From the IMG/VR virus record IMGVR_UViG_3300033993_003435, positions 1-34,550 of that record: a stretch of 34,550 nucleotides of DNA; one strand, given 5' to 3'. This document shows positions 3,978 to 28,888 of the stretch, in pieces. Position 1 is the first letter of the stretch, and each line of letters starts with the position of its first letter. The position numbers and the translations under genes were made by a program. Below the pieces are notes generated by a model, which was not told where the DNA came from, did no database searches, and saw only the letters and a list, made by a program, of their open reading frames with translations. This DNA comes from a virus.

Positions 3978-5627
3978 TTATGATTCGCAATTGGAGCAAG
4001 CCAAGATGGAGCGAGCAAGTTCTTGGGCAGGGTTAGCCGAACGCTGATAGTATAAAGCTTTGATTCCCTGCTCCCATGCAAATATAATAAGTTCATTTAC
4101 ATCCTTAGGCTTTGTATTAGGAGGTATCATTACATTCAATGACTGACCTTGATCAATATACTTTTGACGACCTGCAGCTTGGATGATAATCTCTTTTTGT
4201 GGAATTTCACCGAAAGTCTTGAAGACATCCTTTTCATGCTGCGTTAGAAAATCTAAATGCTGAACCGAACCGCCCTTCTTGAGAATAGACATCCATGTCT
4301 CATCATCATGCTTACCCTTCTCCTTAAGAAGCGCTTTAAGATACGGATTCTTATAGGTAAATTTACCCTTAGCAAGATCCTTAACATAGTAGTTTGAATT
4401 TTGAGGTTCGATAGACGGGCTTACCTGACCGAGAATAAACGAACTCGATGTCGTTGGAGCTACAGCTAATGTCGTTGTGTTGCGACGACCATAACCCTTA
4501 AGTAGAGGTGGTTCGCCAAATTCCTTAGCTAGAGATTCAGAAGCTCTATCTGCTTTCTCTCTAATAGTCTTCCAGATCTGAGTATTGATAATCTTCGCCT
4601 GCATTGACTCGAACGCAACCATCTTTTGCTGAAGTAAGGAATGCCAACCTAGAACACCAACGCCAATAGCGCGCTGATTGATAGCAAAGTTTCTAGGATG
4701 ATCCATAAACTTCATTCCTTCGGTCTTATTAATAAACTCTGTCATTACAGCATCAAGGAAGTATACAAGTGTTTCGACAGCATCTGTATCCTTCCAATCT
4801 TCCCAACGCTCAAGATTAAGCGAAGAAAGATCACACACAAAAGACTCATCAATACCATTTGATAACATAATTTCGCTGCAAAGGTTGCTGTGGTGAATCT
4901 TTAATCCCTTATCCTTATAGACTTGCGGGGCCTGGTTATTAGCGTTATCGGTAAAGAAGATATAAGGATATCCAGATTCAAAACGCTTCTTAATAACAGA
5001 GGCCCAGATAGTACGCTTTTCCCTGTCACCTTCCTTCATGGACTTCATCCATTCATCCGATACACAGACACCAATTGAAAGATTCTGAATATCATCACCT
5101 TCTCCTCTAATCTTCAGGAACTCTTCAATATCAGGGTGATCAATAGGAAGATAAGCTGCAAAAGAACCACGGCGGACATTACCCTGGGAGATATAATTTG
5201 TTAATGACTCAAACACTGTTAACTGATGATGGACACCGGTTGCTTCGCCCCCAGAAGAAATCTTAGCACCTCTCGGTCTAATTGCACCAAAATATCCAGA
5301 TGTACCACCGCCAACCTTAGACATAACACCGACCTCTGACATCTTATAAAGAATATCATCCATGTCATCGTTAACATAAGAACCGAAGCAAGAAATTGGT
5401 AAGCCGCGATCACGGCCGAAATTACTCCAGATAGGACTTGAAAGTGAATAGTAACCTAATTTTAAATATTCTTCGAACTTGTCTGCAAAACCTTTAATCT
5501 TTAGAAGCTTTTCAGCAGTCTTTGCGATGTCAGTAATGCGTTGTTCGGCAGTTTCTCCTTCTAGAAGGTAACCACGTTCTAGAAACTTTCTAGAATCCTT
5601 ATTAAGCCAATAGATATCCTTATGCAT
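3978..5627 (-). CDS. nrdA: Ribonucleotide reductase class I, large (alpha) subunit NrdA
   Basis: A 549-residue NrdA that reduces ribonucleotides to deoxyribonucleotides with NrdB. Visible catalytic features: C80 in SCFGSYV, N248-L-C250-S-E252 (radical-site NLCSE) and C265 in FVCDLSSLNL. Further along are Y526-Y527 (ALYYQRS, radical relay) and a C-terminal C544-S-N-C547 redox pair. At 549 residues it is about 200 shorter than E. coli NrdA, and the N-terminal ATP-cone is absent. It therefore probably lacks overall activity inhibition by dATP, which would suit a phage needing high dNTP flux. nrdB lies 36 bases upstream. The frame looks intact. Confidence 0.95.
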   Translation of the reverse strand: MHKDIYWLNKDSRKFLERGYLLEGETAEQRITDIAKTAEKLLKIKGFADKFEEYLKLGYYSLSSPIWSNFGRDRGLPISCFGSYVNDDMDDILYKMSEVGVMSKVGGGTSGYFGAIRPRGAKISSGGEATGVHHQLTVFESLTNYISQGNVRRGSFAAYLPIDHPDIEEFLKIRGEGDDIQNLSIGVCVSDEWMKSMKEGDREKRTIWASVIKKRFESGYPYIFFTDNANNQAPQVYKDKGLKIHHSNLCSEIMLSNGIDESFVCDLSSLNLERWEDWKDTDAVETLVYFLDAVMTEFINKTEGMKFMDHPRNFAINQRAIGVGVLGWHSLLQQKMVAFESMQAKIINTQIWKTIREKADRASESLAKEFGEPPLLKGYGRRNTTTLAVAPTTSSSFILGQVSPSIEPQNSNYYVKDLAKGKFTYKNPYLKALLKEKGKHDDETWMSILKKGGSVQHLDFLTQHEKDVFKTFGEIPQKEIIIQAAGRQKYIDQGQSLNVMIPPNTKPKDVNELIIFAWEQGIKALYYQRSANPAQELARSILACSNCES

Positions 5628-7042: not shown

Positions 7043-7050
7043 TATTTAGT
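7043..7050 (-). promoter_or_regulatory. T4-like late promoter box ACTAAATA
   Basis: ACTAAATA, then CTATT, then the ATG at 7037. The box overlaps the stop region of the fibre gene. The five-base spacing leaves no space for a ribosome-binding site. Confidence 0.6.
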
Positions 7051-10000
7051 TAATCTTAAAGACTTCAACCTTTGTCCAAGCTCCATCAGATGTACCTATA
7101 ATACTTTGAGCAGCATTGCTTGAATAGGCTATAAATTCAAGGTAATCAGTCGTACCATTAAGGAAGGCAATATCTGCTGTATTCTGTGTTGTGTTAACAT
7201 TAGAGTCACTAATAGGTTGCTGAGCTAGAGCCACCGATGTATCATTTCTTCTAATTTGAATGTTATTTTGATTACCTGAACCTGAAGTGCCACCGACCCA
7301 GGCTACTTGATAATCAACATGATAATAACCAGGGATGGTTGGTGTAAGTCTGCGGGTGCTTCTATCAAACCAATTATTTGGATCATTTAAAGGATCGAGA
7401 GTTACAGTAGTATCAGAAGCGTTATTAGCTGTTTGATTTGCTGTTAAAGATAAAGTGACAACGTAGTTTGTATTTGATTCAATATTTCCTTGAACCGATA
7501 AGTTATTAACGTATGTGTAATTTGCTTTAGATGCACTTAAACTTGATCCTAAGATAAAGGTATTAGCAAATCCCTTTGTATTATTAGCAGACCCACCAGC
7601 AACGAATGAGTAGTTACCAGATGCTGTATTACAGAAACCACCAACGATAACGGAGAAACCACTAGATACAAGATTTCTACAACCTGCACCTATGAAAATA
7701 CATCCGCCAGAAGCTATATTATTTCTCCCGCCAATAACTGTTGAGGCACCACCACTTGTGATACAATTTGTATAACCTGAAACAGTATTTCTGCTACCGC
7801 CACATATTGCATTACCACTTCCGCCTAAAATCGTATTAACATCATTTGCAGGCGAATTGACTGTGTTAAAAAGCCCTCCTAAAATAGAGTGATAACTGCC
7901 TGCACATATTCTATTTGTGAGACCACCGACAATGTTATTATAGTTGCCTGTACTTATTGTATTTGTGATACCACCGACAATGTTATTATAACTTCCTGTA
8001 CTTATTGTATTTGTGTCTCCACCTCCAACAAAGCTAAAGCTACCAAATGATGTATTTCTAAAACCACTTCCCACAAAATTATAACAACCGGACGCTGTAT
8101 TTAAAATACCTCCGCCAATAAAACTGTTTCGCCCGCCGATGTTTAAGCATCTATCATAAACAAAGATACTACAAGCACTCAATCCTGTTCTGCATGCACT
8201 ATAGTCTTCATTAATAATAATGCAGTTCGCAGCATTCGTAACGACATTGGCTGTAGTAAAACATGCTGATGATAGGGTACTATTAGCTGTACCTGATGTC
8301 ATCCACATTAAGGATACTGCTCCTGTTGTACCTGATGCACTAAAGCACGATCCGATGCCTGTAGCTATTAAAGCTGTATTAGTTCCATTACCTGATAGGT
8401 TAGCACCAAAAGTGATATTAGCTGGAGTAAAGCCACCAGTATGGTTAAAAGAACCACCAACAATACTAGAATTAAAGAGAGGGTTATGATTGAATTTACC
8501 ACCGGCGATAGTTGAGAAAGCACCTAATACAGTATTACATAAACCACCTGCTATATTTGAATAGTTTCCAGAAGCCGTTTGTCTATAACCCCCTGAAATC
8601 GTAGTACGAGCTCCGCATGTTGTATTTGCATGTCCGAGAACTACGTTAACACTTCCGCATGCTCTATTTGATGCTCCCATTGCAACACCAATATTTCCAA
8701 TGACCTGATTCAGATATCCTGATGCGGTTCCAGCAGCACCACCAGTGCAAATAATATTACCTCTCCCGCCTAGTATACTTGCACAGTTAGCAATAACAGT
8801 ATTAGCACAACCGCCTACTATAACAGAACAGCTACCAGTTACTGTATTACTTGCACCTCCACCGATAAAACTATAGCGCCCTGAAGCTGTATTAAGTTTA
8901 CCACCAGCTATAGTATTAACGTACCCTGTCTGGTTTATTGTTCTGTCATAAACATATACAGATGTAGCACTAAGACCAGATGAGGTACAAGTACTATAAT
9001 CATTATTAACTACAATAAAGTTAGTACCAGTTGCTGCAATTGTAGCTGTTGTAAATATACCAGAGCTTAGAGGTACAGTAGGTGTAGCATAGTATAGAGA
9101 AACATTACCAGTAGTAAAAGGAAAAGAGAAACAGCTTTGGATACCAGTACCAGTTAATCTGGTCTGGGTACCATTACCTGAAATTGATGCTGTTGTGATA
9201 TTAAAAGGAGCAAATCCACCGGTATGATTAGCAACGCCTCCACCAATAATTGAGTCTCGAAGAGGGTTAAAGTTACCGAGACCGCCAACGATAATAGAAT
9301 AGGCTGAAGAAGCTGTAATAGCATTACAACTACCTCCAGCGATATTGCTAGGTGCGGCTAATGCACAATTCTGCAGACCTCCGCCTACAGAGCTGCAATT
9401 ACCAATAGCACAATTTGAATTACCAGCAGCTACAATTGATGCTCTACCTTGAGCTAAATTAGATAAACCACCAACAACATTAGCAAATGTACCAACAGAA
9501 GCAGTGTTGTTTCTACCTCCTACAACTACATTATAAGCAGCTGAAGCTGTATTACAACATCCACCGTTTATAGAGCTATAATTACCCGAAGCTGTATTCT
9601 TATTACCACCAACAGCTACAGCATAGTTACCTGTAGCTCTATTTCCTGAACCAGCGCCTACAAATGTTGCATAGCCTGTTGCACGTGAACTAAAACCGCC
9701 AACGATTGATGAATAGGTTCCAGATGCTATATTACAATCACCTCCTAAGACACCAGAGAATATACCAGAAGCTATATTATCACCTAAAACTGTATCAATT
9801 GATGACGTTAAAGAAACAATTGTAAAGGGATTAGTTGAAACTGCTTGATACGCTGTATTCCATTGATCTGAATTTCCGTCTCCTTGTATGTAAATCTTGC
9901 CACTCGTCGTGATATCCGACGTCGCTGATATTTCACCGACTACAGTTAATGTCTTATTAGGTGTACTCGTCTTAACACCTACATTAGGATGCGAACCATT

Positions 10001-11965
10001 ATTACCACCAACATGAAGTACTTCAATACCTTGATCCAAATCATAGAATGAAGCAATGTCACCATCTCCATTGTTACCAATATATAATGCAGGACCACTC
10101 CCTATGTGAACAACGCTCAAAGCACTTGTAACAGAAAAGACAGTGTTTGCAAACGTTGTAGTGCCTGTCGCTGTCAAGTTACCAAAGACAGTTAAATTAT
10201 TATTGATTCTTACAGGACCTGAAACTAAGCCACCAGTGAGATTGAGAAAGTTACTATCTACATAGTTTGTTGTAGCATATAATGCAGAATTGCTAGCGTA
10301 TACAGTAGAGATATTATATGCAGTATCCCAATTAGCACTCGTACTAATAACAAGAGCATTAACGTTAGGGTTACCAGCACCGCCTCCGCTCCCAGATAGA
10401 ATATTAAATAAACTAACGCCACCAGAGAGATATTGACCGGTAACGTTCAGATCGCCATTCATCGTACCGCCATTAGCGTATTGTACAGCATTTGAACCAC
10501 CACCGCCTCCGAGGTCAAGAATGCGTCTAGCGTACGACATGACCTCTTCTGATACCTTAGCTACCTTAGCGTCTGTATATTTTCTTGCGTCATCAACTAG
10601 TAACTGGACGTTCTTCTTCTCAGTGACAAAAGATTGTATTCTCTTGTTTATATCTTTAATGGTGGTGTTGAGCTCGGGGAGCTTTCCGTCTACTTCGCTC
10701 TTAAATTTATCAATTGAATACCCGACAGTGTTGAGTTTATCTGTTATTGTATTGTTTAAATTCTGCTTATGTTCATCAAGTAATACAGTTACAGCCTTAT
10801 TTAACTCCTCTGTCTTTTCGTTAAAGATCCTTGAGGCTGTCTCCGTAGAGGAGGTTTTAAACTCACGAGACAGGTTGTTTTTATATTCAGCTAAATCTGT
10901 AGCTACCTTTTCACTAAATTGATCCTGTAAAATACCAGCTCTATTTACAAGAAGCACATCAACATTATCATTGTTTAAAGTTATTTTTTCAGTAACAATA
11001 ACATCAAGTGACTTAGTTATCGTATCAATCTCTGAACCGATATTACGCTTATGCTCTTCTAGTTCTGTAATGATTTTTTCTGTAAAAACAGCTTCAAGCT
11101 CAGAAGCACGTTCAAGAAGTAGCTTATCATTCTCAACAGAGGCCTGCTCTAATCTCTCTGCTAGAAGAGAATTAATGCTACTCTTAATCTCATTTACTTG
11201 ATTATCCTGATATTTCTTAACTTCCTCCAGATTGGCAGAAGATAGTGTTTCAAGATATTTACCGACATTAATTTGCTGATCATCAAACTGTCCTTGTATA
11301 GATGCAACAGCTTCGTTAATTGCTTGCTCAAGAAGCTCTTTCTGTTGTTCACTAATACGAAAGGTTTCATGTAATAACTCTGACTTATAATCCTCAAGCG
11401 TTTTTTGTATTCTACGATCATCCTCTAACACTATACGCTCTCTATTCAATCGCTGTACTTCAGCCTTAATTCTTGCTTGCTCCTCAATAAGATGTGCTTC
11501 ATATGATTTAACCCTTTCTACATATTCGCTAACATCTTCTGATACAGGTATTATCTGAAGATCATCAATCGAGTCCTCTATATTCTTTTCGTTACCGATA
11601 GTTACATCATAACTCTCTTCGATGAAATTAGGTAGTGTTGTGTGTTCGCTTATTGACGAATAAGAACCGAGTAAAGAGAGATTAATGGTTGATTGAGGTA
11701 GCTCTTTACTGCCTTCAACAGTGACGAGCTTAAAGCGGACACTAGGGTAAACACGACCATCAGGGAGCTGGATATCAGTCTCTAAATAGTTGTTGGTTGA
11801 TTCTTGTATGTAGCTATGAATAAACTCATTATCCTTTGTAGAGATAATAGATACATTATCGAGACTCTCTTCGAGAGGTCGACAGAATATAACATTTTCA
11901 ATACTCGAACTCTCGATAAAGGAACACGATATTCGATTATCAATGACTATATCAATAAGCTGCAC
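7046..11965 (-). CDS. Giant tail fibre with coiled coil, YadA-like beta-roll repeats and C1q-like tip
   Basis: This 1639-residue protein starts with GTG. Residues 1-145: beta-rich attachment region. About 145-480: long coiled coil rich in Glu/Lys/Leu. About 485-490: glycine hinge (LGGGGGSNAV). About 490-730: fibre-type repeats (MNGDLNVTG, VFGNLTATG, SDITTSGKIYIQG). About 730-1490: many 14-16-residue repeats of the type GGxxNTASGxYSxIxGG, as in the trimeric YadA/Hia head (left-handed beta-roll). Two homologous inserts (about 896-1011 and 1155-1278) interrupt the roll. About 1500-1639: a C1q/TNF-like jelly roll (LTPTIPGYYHVDYQVAW), the likely receptor-binding tip. Cys is unusually frequent in the roll. 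It is probably a trimeric long tail fibre or baseplate spike for host recognition. A late box (CATAAATA) ends five bases before GTG. Confidence 0.85.
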   Translation of the reverse strand: MQLIDIVIDNRISCSFIESSSIENVIFCRPLEESLDNVSIISTKDNEFIHSYIQESTNNYLETDIQLPDGRVYPSVRFKLVTVEGSKELPQSTINLSLLGSYSSISEHTTLPNFIEESYDVTIGNEKNIEDSIDDLQIIPVSEDVSEYVERVKSYEAHLIEEQARIKAEVQRLNRERIVLEDDRRIQKTLEDYKSELLHETFRISEQQKELLEQAINEAVASIQGQFDDQQINVGKYLETLSSANLEEVKKYQDNQVNEIKSSINSLLAERLEQASVENDKLLLERASELEAVFTEKIITELEEHKRNIGSEIDTITKSLDVIVTEKITLNNDNVDVLLVNRAGILQDQFSEKVATDLAEYKNNLSREFKTSSTETASRIFNEKTEELNKAVTVLLDEHKQNLNNTITDKLNTVGYSIDKFKSEVDGKLPELNTTIKDINKRIQSFVTEKKNVQLLVDDARKYTDAKVAKVSEEVMSYARRILDLGGGGGSNAVQYANGGTMNGDLNVTGQYLSGGVSLFNILSGSGGGAGNPNVNALVISTSANWDTAYNISTVYASNSALYATTNYVDSNFLNLTGGLVSGPVRINNNLTVFGNLTATGTTTFANTVFSVTSALSVVHIGSGPALYIGNNGDGDIASFYDLDQGIEVLHVGGNNGSHPNVGVKTSTPNKTLTVVGEISATSDITTSGKIYIQGDGNSDQWNTAYQAVSTNPFTIVSLTSSIDTVLGDNIASGIFSGVLGGDCNIASGTYSSIVGGFSSRATGYATFVGAGSGNRATGNYAVAVGGNKNTASGNYSSINGGCCNTASAAYNVVVGGRNNTASVGTFANVVGGLSNLAQGRASIVAAGNSNCAIGNCSSVGGGLQNCALAAPSNIAGGSCNAITASSAYSIIVGGLGNFNPLRDSIIGGGVANHTGGFAPFNITTASISGNGTQTRLTGTGIQSCFSFPFTTGNVSLYYATPTVPLSSGIFTTATIAATGTNFIVVNNDYSTCTSSGLSATSVYVYDRTINQTGYVNTIAGGKLNTASGRYSFIGGGASNTVTGSCSVIVGGCANTVIANCASILGGRGNIICTGGAAGTASGYLNQVIGNIGVAMGASNRACGSVNVVLGHANTTCGARTTISGGYRQTASGNYSNIAGGLCNTVLGAFSTIAGGKFNHNPLFNSSIVGGSFNHTGGFTPANITFGANLSGNGTNTALIATGIGSCFSASGTTGAVSLMWMTSGTANSTLSSACFTTANVVTNAANCIIINEDYSACRTGLSACSIFVYDRCLNIGGRNSFIGGGILNTASGCYNFVGSGFRNTSFGSFSFVGGGDTNTISTGSYNNIVGGITNTISTGNYNNIVGGLTNRICAGSYHSILGGLFNTVNSPANDVNTILGGSGNAICGGSRNTVSGYTNCITSGGASTVIGGRNNIASGGCIFIGAGCRNLVSSGFSVIVGGFCNTASGNYSFVAGGSANNTKGFANTFILGSSLSASKANYTYVNNLSVQGNIESNTNYVVTLSLTANQTANNASDTTVTLDPLNDPNNWFDRSTRRLTPTIPGYYHVDYQVAWVGGTSGSGNQNNIQIRRNDTSVALAQQPISDSNVNTTQNTADIAFLNGTTDYLEFIAYSSNAAQSIIGTSDGAWTKVEVFKIN
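7923..8018 (-). repeat. 48-bp tandem duplication inside the fibre gene
   Basis: Two adjacent 48-base units (7923-7970 and 7971-8018) are nearly identical and keep frame. Each encodes one 16-residue beta-roll repeat (NNIVGGxTNTISTGxY). The near-identity points to a recent repeat expansion that changes fibre length. Confidence 0.75.
8130..9276 (-). repeat. Duplicated ~115-residue insert domain in the fibre
   Basis: Two homologous segments lie at about 8930-9276 and 8130-8500. Each begins NPLxxSxIxGGxxNHTGGF and carries NITxxxxxSGNGT and TGIxSCFS. Each ends with a DYSxC...LSAxSxxVYDR block, then returns to NTASG beta-roll repeats. They look like a duplicated small domain (loop or side knob) set into the roll. 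Identity is moderate, so this duplication is older than the 48-bp one. Confidence 0.7.
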
Positions 11966-26122: not shown

Positions 26123-27220
26123 TTAGGCTTCCAGGTTAGCTGGAGCAACTGACCGGAAAGGGTCTGGTGCAACTGCTGCGAAGTCAGGTCCGGTGAAGAA
26201 CATGTCTGAAGCCAGACGATTAAGTTCCATTCGGAGAGCGATATCCTGATCAGTAGTCCTATGGGTAGCGACGTTGGTCAGGTTATTGAACAAGTCGTAA
26301 GCGTTGACGTTTGAATTAGCAGTCGCCATCCAACGATTACCCTTACCCTTGAGAGCGATACCAGCGTCAGTGTAGCGGCGCTTGATCTCCTGATCGTTGA
26401 ACATAGTAGCACCGAGCTCCTTATCAACCCTCATAGCGATTGCACGTGCTGTATTGAACTCACGGAGTGAGGCGTTATGGTTGCGGAGGCGGTTACCAGC
26501 CATCTGTACCTCTTCCTTGATAATGTCACCGGATAGGAACTTACGGACCTGGGTATCGAAGGTCTTCTGGGTGAAGTCTGCGCTATCAACAAAACGCTGA
26601 GCCATACGATGTACAGCAGTCATTCCGTTAGAGCAGACAAGACGGAGAAGATAAGGATAGAACTGTGACTTGTTAAGCGAGAAGTTCATACCAAACCCGC
26701 TCTTCCAGACATCCTTTCCATCACCAAATACATCGATGTCAGCGTCAGGGTTCTTGAAGTTGATGGCGATACTGATGTTCGTGGGATCGAAGTAGAAATC
26801 CCTCAGCTCGAGGTTGTTGTTGTTCTCACGGAGATACTCCTCCGTATAGCGTAGACCATTGGAGAGATCTACCGCACGCTCTTCCTTAATAGAACGATCG
26901 AAGATATTGTTAATCTCATTACTCTGACTATTTAGAACAGCGGTCACGCGCTTGTTCTTCCTAATGTTCGAGAGAGCATTGTGAAGAGGTGCCCACTGAG
27001 AGCTATCATCGCTAATCTCATTAACAAGCTGCTCCTTAACTCCAAGAACATTGATAAGGCTCTTAAGAGACTCCTGACGGAGCTGGTTACCATTGTAGAA
27101 GAAGCTGTTACCCTTCTTTTCGATGTTTTCGACATCCAGAGGAACAAGGCTGTAACCTTGAAGCGTCTGGCGAATATTGTTGCTTTGGGCAACGAACTTA
27201 TCTAGTGTTGTTGTACTCAT
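26123..27220 (-). CDS. DUF932-like phage protein, 365 aa
   Basis: The frame opens at 27343, but ATG 27220 is the likely start, with AAGGGGG just upstream; the longer version would run into the terminator at 27312-27354. The protein begins MSTTTLDKFVAQSNNIRQTL. The phrase FYPYLLRLVCSNGMTAVHRM (about residues 190-209) is the hallmark R-x-x-C-S-N-G of DUF932 proteins. Residues around NRWMATANSNVNAYDLFNNL match the C-terminal W-x-x-x-N...D-x-x-N-x-x-T part. DUF932 proteins are common on phages and plasmids; their role is unknown. It is monocistronic between two terminators, and its G+C-richer coding suggests high expression. Confidence 0.72.
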   Translation of the reverse strand: MSTTTLDKFVAQSNNIRQTLQGYSLVPLDVENIEKKGNSFFYNGNQLRQESLKSLINVLGVKEQLVNEISDDSSQWAPLHNALSNIRKNKRVTAVLNSQSNEINNIFDRSIKEERAVDLSNGLRYTEEYLRENNNNLELRDFYFDPTNISIAINFKNPDADIDVFGDGKDVWKSGFGMNFSLNKSQFYPYLLRLVCSNGMTAVHRMAQRFVDSADFTQKTFDTQVRKFLSGDIIKEEVQMAGNRLRNHNASLREFNTARAIAMRVDKELGATMFNDQEIKRRYTDAGIALKGKGNRWMATANSNVNAYDLFNNLTNVATHRTTDQDIALRMELNRLASDMFFTGPDFAAVAPDPFRSVAPANLEA

Positions 27221-27311
27221 GACCCCCTTATAATACGGGCACGAGAAAAGGAACTCCAGAAATTTCTTTAGGATTCCGGAAGTACTTTGTAATTCCTTGA
27301 TTTTAAATAAA

Positions 27312-27354
27312 AAAACCGGAGCTGGAATGTGACTAGCACCCAACTCCGGTTTTC
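27312..27354. terminator. Bidirectional terminator
   Basis: Stem AACCGGAG/CTCCGGTT with an inner CTGG/CCAA part. T-rich on both exits (TTTTTTT on minus, TTTTCTCTTTT on plus). On the minus strand it closes the tRNA/structured-RNA unit before the DUF932-like gene. Confidence 0.85.
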
Positions 27355-27369
27355 TCTTTTATACGATCC

Positions 27370-28018
27370 TCTCACCAACGCGCTGGTATCAACAAGGCAT
27401 CGAGTCTGCTTTTCTTTATTCCCTCTGCATTTGTGCTGGGGTTACAACACGATTAGGACTTGAGACCTTTGGCGACTACGGATAGCTAATCCATTCACCA
27501 GTAGCATTACTAAAGAAATTATTGGTATTGAAAGATTTTATTCCGGATTTTGTTCTTTCCTCAACGGGTACCGGCATGGAGCCAGCGCGCCGTCCAGTCT
27601 GTGTTTATTAAAGCAAGGGATCAAAGCTGTACGCAGGTTTTTGGCTCCCCCTCTGAAAATACGTCTACTAACTTACCAACAGACAACTCAACGCATCTCT
27701 CCCACGGATTATACCTACAACGCGGGAACTTATTTTAATGATTACTGGCCTATCGGAGCTAGGAAGTTTATAGCTCCCGTTCTTTAAGACTTGTGAAACT
27801 CTTAAAACTACTAGGTCGCTACTACCCGCGGCTTCGGACTAGTATTGCTACTACCGAGAACTATACGCAGTAATCAAATTATTATGACCGGGGTGGTTGT
27901 AATCCATCCTAGTGCACCGGTTGATGAAGGCCTTTCAGAGCGAACCTAGTCACGCACACGTACGGTTCAGACCTTAGATGGTCTTCGGCTCTTTCGATCG
28001 AGCCTGCGAACGGTCAAA
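27370..28018 (-). ncRNA. Candidate large structured non-coding RNA (GOLLD/ROOL-like)
   Basis: About 650 bases with no credible ORF on either strand, between tRNA-Met and a terminator. Many stems are visible: GGCTC/GAGCC (27987-28004), AGACC/GGTCT (27969-27984), GAACC/GGTTC (27942-27968) and ACCGG/CCGGT enclosing GGTGG/CCATC (27887-27921). Further ones are GGAGCTA/TAGCTCC (27755-27777) and a long-range GGAGCC/GGCTCC (27578-27583 with 27643-27648). Large ornate RNAs such as GOLLD and ROOL are known beside phage tRNA genes, which makes them the leading guess. I cannot confirm the family without a covariance search. The minus strand is assumed from the flanking tRNAs. Confidence 0.55.
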
Positions 28019-28020
28019 TT

Positions 28021-28093
28021 TGGCAGGGCCGGGAATCGAACCCGGAATCTTGTGGTTATGAGCCACACGACTTAACCGTTTGTCCACCCTGCG
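28021..28093 (-). tRNA. tRNA-Met (CAU)
   Basis: Anticodon stem TGTGG/CCACA with loop CTCATAA (CAT). T-arm CCGGG/TTCGATT/CCCGG. Acceptor GCAGGG/CCCTGC (positions 2-7) with an unpaired C1-C72. CCA is not encoded. The stem lacks the three G-C pairs of initiator tRNA. It could be elongator Met or, after lysidine modification, Ile (AUA). Confidence 0.85.
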
Positions 28094-28169
28094 TTAAAAT
28101 GTACTATCAAAGATCAATTCTTATTCCATTAATATATAGTCTATAGTAGGGACTGGCAAGAATAAAAAA

Positions 28170-28252: not shown

Positions 28253-28335
28253 TGGAGCCTGTGGAGGGACTCGAACCCCCGTTGTTTGTATACCACTTTA
28301 CAAAAGTGGTGCTGTCGCCGCTGAGCCACACAGGC
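28253..28335 (-). tRNA. tRNA-Thr (UGU)
   Basis: Acceptor GCCTGTG/CACAGGC and encoded CCA. Anticodon stem CCACT/AGTGG with loop TTTGTAA (TGT). A 12-base variable region (long for Thr). T-arm GGGGG/TTCGAGT/CCCTC. A TCTAAATA box lies eight bases upstream of the 5' end (28344-28351). Confidence 0.88.
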
Positions 28336-28439: not shown

Positions 28440-28888
28440 TGGTGGAGGCGTCGGAGATCTGCCCTCCGAGTCCTTATAATATTTCTCTTATATTTTCTAC
28501 ACGCTTATGTAAGTTTAGGATTTGATTGACTACAGGCTCCTATGGCTTACCAGCCTATCTTTTTAAGTCTGCCTATATAGATGAAGAGTTCTATACAACC
28601 CCTTGTACTGAGTTTTCTAGGAGTCACAAGTACCTCCATAACCTATTGGTTTAGCTCCCTAAGATCTTTAATAGGATCCAATCTTAGTTTTTAGGCAGCG
28701 AGGAGTGACTCTTCTTCGCAGCTGGCGAGGATATCGTCAGCGTTGTTGAAACAGTACTCAGCTTCTGCTAAGAGCGCATCGATGTTATCTTCTGCGTTTA
28801 GTTTTTTAGAAGGCTTTTATAGTGGCCAACCTTCCAACCACTGCGTGCAATATAAAACCAGACTATAAGTCGATTCTATGTCGCCCCC
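28440..28888 (-). ncRNA. ssrA: tmRNA (transfer-messenger RNA), one-piece
   Basis: The tRNA-like domain is closed by GGGGGCG (5') and CGCCTCC (3'), then A and encoded CCA. The 5' side continues GACATAGAATCGAC, as in tmRNA D-arms. The 3' T-stem is CGGAG/CTCCG with an atypical loop GGCAGAT. The tag ORF (28691-28795) runs from a probable resume codon GCA to TAA and encodes AEDNIDALLAEAEYCFNNAD then DILASCEEESLLAA. The terminal L-L-A-A is the protease-recognised end. tmRNA frees stalled ribosomes and marks nascent chains. At 449 nt with a 34-residue tag it is on the long side. Confidence 0.9.
28691..28795 (-). CDS. tmRNA tag peptide ORF (34 aa)
   Basis: Translated only by trans-translation. The likely resume codon is GCA 28793-28795, in the context CTAAAC-GCA that resembles known resume sites. 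It ends with SLLAA and TAA at 28691-28693. It holds two Cys and ten acidic residues, longer and more acidic than the usual 8-15-residue tags. Confidence 0.75.
   Translation of the reverse strand, partial: AEDNIDALLAEAEYCFNNADDILASCEEESLLAA

Follow-up and report, generated by a model that had tools for sequence, protein, structure and literature searches.

GOLLD assembles into a homo-14-mer nanocage. We know of no established role for either GOLLD or ROOL in phages, and twister ribozymes, to our knowledge, mostly still lack an assigned biological role. Intermolecular kissing loops have been recognized by loop changes that preserve self-complementarity, GGCC being replaced by GAUC or AGCU in loop L9.3 of OLE, and GC by CG in loop L21a of GOLLD (PMC12286853). 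Comparison of related phage sequences indicates that, in the stretch beside a phage tRNA-Met gene described here, the minus strand encodes an uncatalogued, conserved and structured RNA, which many large phages from metagenomes have in common. The first-pass annotation had read this stretch as a possible ornate phage RNA, either a divergent member of the GOLLD/ROOL class or a new one. A new structured RNA with GOLLD-like habits, lying beside tRNAs, was indeed recovered; however, neither model found a match in the region or in 12 related records, the RNA is of smaller size, and a segment of about 100 nt corresponds to a twister-type ribozyme which had been overlooked.

The window, i.e. the whole stretch of DNA analysed, is a phage fragment of 34.5 kb (34,550 nt; IMG/VR record IMGVR_UViG_3300033993_003435, positions 1 to 34,550). 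The order on its minus strand is tmRNA (28888-28440), tRNA-Thr, tRNA-Trp, tRNA-Met (28093-28021), the stretch 27370-28018, a hairpin (27361-27304) and a gene start at 27220. The features of the locus are as follows:

28440..28888, minus strand: phage tmRNA (RF00023, 85.7 bits), a neighbour outside the RNA.
28131..28159, minus strand: sigma-70-type promoter TTGCCA-17-TATATT (-35, 17-nt spacer, -10), conserved in members.
28094..28122, minus strand: conserved 5' leader AAGAATTGATCTTTGATAGTACATTTTAA, near-identical in promoter-bearing members.
28021..28093, minus strand: tRNA-Met (CAU), between promoter and RNA.
28016..27885, minus strand: 5' module D1, closing stem UGACCG/CGGUCA, found in 7 members.
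27925..27937, minus strand: hairpin UGAA-AGGCC-UUCA within D1, its loop (GGCC, or CGCG in L089 and L090) being a candidate for self-kissing.
27739..27876, minus strand: optional module D2, closed by UGAUUACUG/CAGUAAUCA.
27526..27730, minus strand: constant 3' core D3 (~205 nt), helices H1-H5 and loop pairing H6.
27530..27559, minus strand: H5 hairpin with candidate self-kissing loop UCCGGA (27547-27542), from loop comparison in 13 members.
27411..27518, minus strand: twister-type (P1) ribozyme, predicted cut U27509/A27508 (RF03160, 28.3 bits; core pattern).
27304..27361, minus strand: terminator-type hairpin (AAAACCGGAGUUGGG...UUUUUUU), from sequence, readable on both strands.

The stretch 27370-28018 had been described as gene-free, and inspection of both strands confirmed this, the longest ORF being one of 62 aa with a TTG start. 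A hidden protein gene was rejected, given that ORFs do not exceed 62 aa, indels do not come in threes and base changes keep the pairs. The proposed borders, a tRNA and a bidirectional terminator, also stood (tRNA-Met at 28021-28093 on the minus strand; a strong hairpin at 27304-27361 with A/T tracts on both sides). The RNA, for which no strand had been given, lies on the minus strand and is transcribed with tRNA-Met; its conserved part, ribozyme included, ends at about 27411. The promoter-tRNA-core order of the window was found again in L091 and L135. By contrast, the description of the region as hairpin-dense was not borne out as stated, and is weak evidence on its own, because single-sequence folding barely exceeded chance (z of -1.0 on the minus and -2.1 on the plus strand); the structural evidence thus rests on homologues and not on folding of the window sequence. 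The annotated GGAGCC and GGCTCC strings are present (27648-27643 and 27583-27578), but the long-range helix between them hardly varies among members, so that it gains no support, and it was discarded; the competing hairpin H4b (CUGGC-UCCAU-GCCGG) does vary on both sides. At most, the GGA of GGAGCC could contact the UCC loop of H4b. Rfam gave no support to pieces of RNase P, hammerhead or group I/II introns seen by eye in the region.

Several observations were made on the surroundings of the RNA. The tmRNA genes (window 28440-28888 on the minus strand, L003 4017-4462, L084 3815-4261), which were missed by ARAGORN, encode long tag peptides that share a terminal LAA and measure 34 aa in the window (AEDNIDALLAEAEYCFNNADDILASCEEESLLAA) and 33 aa in both L003 and L084. 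In L089 (5756-5988, minus strand) and L126 (3301-3525, minus strand), a group I intron match overlaps the tmRNA match at its 3' end, and a partial one occurs in L090 (3907-4013, minus strand); phage tmRNA genes possibly contain introns here. The window tRNA genes at 28253-28335 and 28021-28093 (both minus strand) resemble tRNAs of Sinorhizobium phage Phosso and of Sinorhizobium plasmids, a weak hint from sequence likeness at an alphaproteobacterial host. A repetitive protein of 1639 aa with S(I/F)(V/I)GGGxxNxA-type motifs, encoded at 7046-11965 (minus strand), is probably a tail fibre.

Members of the family were sought through shared motifs, and 14 distinct phage sequences were found to carry the core, complete in 13 of them (identical sequences counted once). 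L083, L084, L086, L088, L089-L092 and L117 were recovered via conserved blocks, and L125, L126, L131 and L135, together with copies, via the leader alone. L013, a twister locus, also holds the upstream part in two blocks of 70-75% identity. All members are metagenome-derived viral contigs (IMG/VR) of up to 218 kb; a T4-type Gp23 capsid gene is present in three member records, and each of the ten matching records tested carries a single copy. Two arrangements are exceptional. L013/L088 has D1 and D3, no leader and no twister directly behind, the twister lying ~6 kb off. In L003, a syntenic relative whose flanking protein is 76% identical, the twister comes after tRNA-Thr, and no more of the core is present than roughly its final 50 nt. 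The following matches were discarded as chance: L087 (a tRNA), L093-L096, L105-L116, L127, L128, L130, L132, L133, L140 and L142-L146. No relative was found in 50,697 phage records, in genome contigs or, the tRNA apart, in plasmids, and among the annotated phage, plasmid and cellular genomes searched none carries it. No earlier report was found in the open-access literature searched.

The secondary structure of the core emerged from comparison of members. Helices were aligned and checked by hand, and the 40 proposed core pairs in seven helices were kept in 97.9% of cases across 13 sequences, with 22 pairs changed on both sides. Shuffled controls averaged 82% kept and 13 both-sided pairs and none of 2000 reached either observed value, figures which, like those for D1 below, overstate the case because shuffling ignores the relatedness of the sequences. 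A covariance model of the core (R1) detected members left out of its building with E values of 1e-34 to 1e-70, and RNAalifold recovered H1, H2 and H4b unaided from a sequence-only alignment. H1 and H2 are almost wholly rewritten between subgroups and still paired. The segment GGGGAGCCAAA in the core is strongly conserved, and none of the Rfam families matches the core. An inner helix CAAA/UUUG was discarded, as it is broken in L125 and L135.

Promoter, leader, core D3, twister and T-run hairpin are constant, and the variable parts lie between leader and core. The window carries tRNA-Met, D1 and D2 at this place; L083, L086 and L089 carry D1 and D2; D1 alone is found in L084, L090 and L013 (the last without leader), D1' with D2 in L117, D1' alone in L092, L125, L126 and L131, tRNA-Met alone in L091, and tRNA-Met with another hairpin insert in L135. 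D1 is thus replaced by D1' in L092, L117, L125, L126 and L131, and D2, present in the window, L083, L086, L089 and L117, is absent from L084, L013, L090, L091 and L092. D1 and D1' are unrelated in sequence except at their ends, D1' having the closing stem UGACUAG/CUAGUCA, and the closing stems of D1, D1' and D2 are all perfect. From these alignments, the modular 5' end looks like the product of cassette exchange of closed domains. In D1, all of the 26 pairs were kept in 7 sequences, six of them with both-sided changes, a result reached by 1 of 2000 shuffles, and its 5' block of 31 nt is nearly invariant. A D1 helix AGAGC/GCUCU was rejected; it is lost in L089, where the hairpin GAUCC/GGAUC replaces GGCUC/GAGCU. 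With the tRNA excluded, the RNA measures about 330-510 nt to the predicted cut.

Upstream of the cassette, a promoter-like site of the form TTGNNN-17-TATATT recurs across members. Twelve of 13 match 9-10 of 12 positions, with a 17-nt spacer and a fixed distance of 8-9 nt to the leader, the exception being L092. A T4-type late promoter (TATAAATA in L086 and L092) was considered and set aside, as the sigma-70 layout with its 17-nt spacer fits nearly all members better. The leader motif GATCTTTGATA, which precedes the RNA at window position 28120, also precedes tmRNA in L003 (3991), L084 (3789) and L091 (5046), and this suggests a promoter-proximal or processing signal common to tmRNA and the RNA. 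A hairpin with T-run comes after the twister in most other members. The gap between twister and terminator (window 27410-27367, minus strand) contains the element AGACTCGnTGnCT...GATAC...GTGAG...CGTA, common to the window, L089 and L135; it forms a small hairpin whose GA-rich loop is asymmetric and perhaps kink-turn-like. A further conserved noncoding block, about CGTNAGTCATAACAAAACT...ACATAATNANGGAC, was observed upstream of the twister in L003 (~4720-4790) and upstream of the RNA unit in L117 (~670-740) and L091 (~9110-9190).

Comparison also placed a twister core behind D3, and the 3' end of the RNA seems, on sequence grounds, to be trimmed by a built-in ribozyme. A permissive Rfam search matched twister-P1 at 27513-27416 (minus strand; 28.3 bits, E 0.0017), and members scored 25.8-32.4 bits with RF03160, all below the gathering cut-off of 67.2. 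This low score is less damaging than it appears, because most canonical-looking viral twisters likewise fall below the cut-off. The core bases UAA, GC, GUCnCAAG, AAAnGC and GAGGG/GAGAG stand in the right order. A twister core pattern matched once in the window, with 0 expected from shuffles, and 78 stretches in viral contigs; UAAUGC, which lies upstream and outside the search pattern, was found in the true twisters among these 78 and in the window. The T1 pseudoknot is CUC/GGG in the window and L003 and CUC/GAG in the others, compared to CCC/GGG in ordinary twisters, i.e. a U-G or U-A pair instead of C-G. P4 and P1 vary on both sides (UUUCUUUA/UAAAGAAA; UUUUCAU/AUGAAAA in L125); P1 counts for L089, L090 and L092 were out of register and were left out of the evidence. 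In 12 members the twister follows the core; in L003 it follows tRNA-Thr and scores 29.3 bits, with variable stems quite different from those of the window. Other phage twisters were also observed near stable RNAs: in L011 (8996-9210 and 9752) behind a permuted tmRNA, and in L022, L030, L062 and L069 ~270 nt behind tRNA-Met. In L036, L039 and L078, more than 1 kb without long ORFs lies upstream of the twister.

Three hairpin loops, in D1, D1' and H5, vary in sequence and yet remain self-complementary. In D1, UGAA-AGGCC-UUCA becomes UAAA-ACGCG-UUUA, so that stem and loop are both altered and the palindrome is kept; in D1', the loop CGGCCG becomes GUGCAC and the stem CAUU/AGUG becomes CCC/GGG; and the H5 loop reads UCCGGA, UUCCGGAA or AUACUAGUAU in the 13 members. 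These loops were picked for testing after being noticed, and palindromes of 6 nt or more are not rare, occurring in 19% of random 18-nt loops. D1 is not the partner of the H5 loop, because L091 and L092, in which D1 is missing or exchanged, retain the H5 palindrome; the simplest partner would be the same loop of another copy of the RNA.

We consider it somewhat probable that the locus represents a phage gene in its own right, encoding a trans-acting, probably self-associating RNA whose own twister cuts its 3' end. Transcription from the sigma-70-type promoter would yield an RNA consisting of the 5' cassette (tRNA-Met, D1 and D2 in the window), core D3, twister and terminator. The predicted cut directly behind D3 would then remove the terminator and give the RNA a fixed 3' terminus bearing a 2',3'-cyclic phosphate. 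Mature copies would join via their palindromic loops (H5, and one in D1 or D1'), either as a homo-dimer or in a larger assembly, much as OLE and GOLLD do, the 5' cassette being the variable part. We infer action in trans because the terminator directly follows the twister and downstream genes differ between phages. A bolder form, which we hold only tentatively, is that the constant core multimerises via its palindromic loops, frees itself by the twister and displays or encloses interchangeable 5' domains, a tRNA among them. If true, this would be a new class of self-assembling phage RNA.

It is rather unlikely that the RNA instead acts as an RNP or decoy whose partner is the ribosome or a protein of host or phage, the twister only setting the 3' end of the RNA and the loops serving symmetric protein binding or being due to chance. 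A binding site would fit with the strong conservation of D1, with its 31-nt 5' block, and of GGGGAGCCAAA within the core, and the RNA adjoins tmRNA and tRNAs, but the sequence changes with kept self-complementarity in three unrelated loops are left unexplained. A role of the twister in trimming tRNA-Met at its 3' trailer, like that proposed for theta ribozymes, with D1, D2 and D3 as spacer, appears improbable: despite tRNA-Met lying directly upstream in the window, L091 and L135, and the L003 twister lying behind tRNA-Thr, the cut would fall ~510 nt beyond the tRNA, a tRNA between promoter and core is missing from most members, and the supposed spacer is the most conserved part. We give still less credit to a natural aptazyme, in which the core would sense a ligand and control cleavage. 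Twelve members have core and twister side by side; however, the terminator after the twister leaves no downstream gene under control, L013 has a core without adjacent twister and L003 a twister without most of the core. A highly divergent GOLLD or ROOL is the least credible reading, for although the phage origin, tRNA island, conserved 3' and variable 5' parts and kissing-loop candidates would fit, and GOLLD env-38 sits downstream of tRNA-Met (PMC12286853), neither model matches the window or 11 related records, nor the region at E up to 10, and the core of ~205 nt compares with 416 and 574 model positions.

Returning to the self-cleaving, trans-acting RNA that we favour, the theta (HDV-like) ribozymes of gut phages offer a likeness as a self-cleaving class tied to phage tRNA genes (PMC10879173). 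They belong to another ribozyme class, and here a conserved RNA lies between tRNA and ribozyme; the ribozyme is twister-like and stands ~510 nt behind tRNA-Met, not directly behind it, and the region has no HDV-type Rfam matches. With twister-P1 (RF03160) it shares the UAAUGC...GUCUCAAGUC...AAAUGCAGAGGG core and has P1, P2, P4, T1 and T2 pairings in place, but differs in the U in the L4 CCC, in the GAGAG partner of most members and in scoring under the Rfam cut-off. Many viral twisters that we found shortly precede an ORF, whereas this one closes a structured RNA on its 3' side and is followed by a terminator; if true, it would, as far as we found, be the first twister to set where a large structured RNA ends at its 3' side. 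OLE resembles the RNA in its symmetric kissing loop with switching palindromes (GGCC to GAUC/AGCU in OLE L9.3, GGCC to CGCG here), but it is bacterial, ~600 nt long and protein-bound, and the region has no Rfam match to it. ROOL (RF03087) is likewise a phage or prophage RNA; it neighbours tRNA islands, and its fold includes pseudoknots as well as symmetric kissing loops. Its model found no match in 12 records, a weaker negative because control genomes were also silent, and none in the region at E up to 10. The GOLLD model (RF02032) did not match the window either, the best hit in the 12 records being 7.5 bits elsewhere (cut-off 150), with control genomes also silent. As no match to either model was found in these searches, we keep the RNA apart from both. 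GOLLD is phage-encoded, lies beside tRNA islands, sometimes tRNA-Met, and has a universally conserved 3' and a variable 5' region; its palindromic loops alter but remain self-complementary (PMC12286853). The phage setting, tRNA association, conserved 3' region and variable 5' region recur in the present RNA, which is much shorter (about 330-510 nt to the predicted cut, many GOLLD RNAs exceeding 800 nt), and here the 5' part consists of swappable closed modules or a tRNA and the 3' end carries a twister. Its swappable modules are natural experiments on the cargo of the core, and a core of ~205 nt is far easier to test. An assembly might hold tRNAs, ribosomes or other cargo. If an unrelated, much smaller phage RNA shares the GOLLD/ROOL habits (a tRNA neighbourhood, a constant 3' and a variable 5' part, loops that switch palindromes), this would point to RNA assemblies as a strategy to which phages resort repeatedly. 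Judged from its sequence, the RNA is GOLLD-like in layout, yet not GOLLD.
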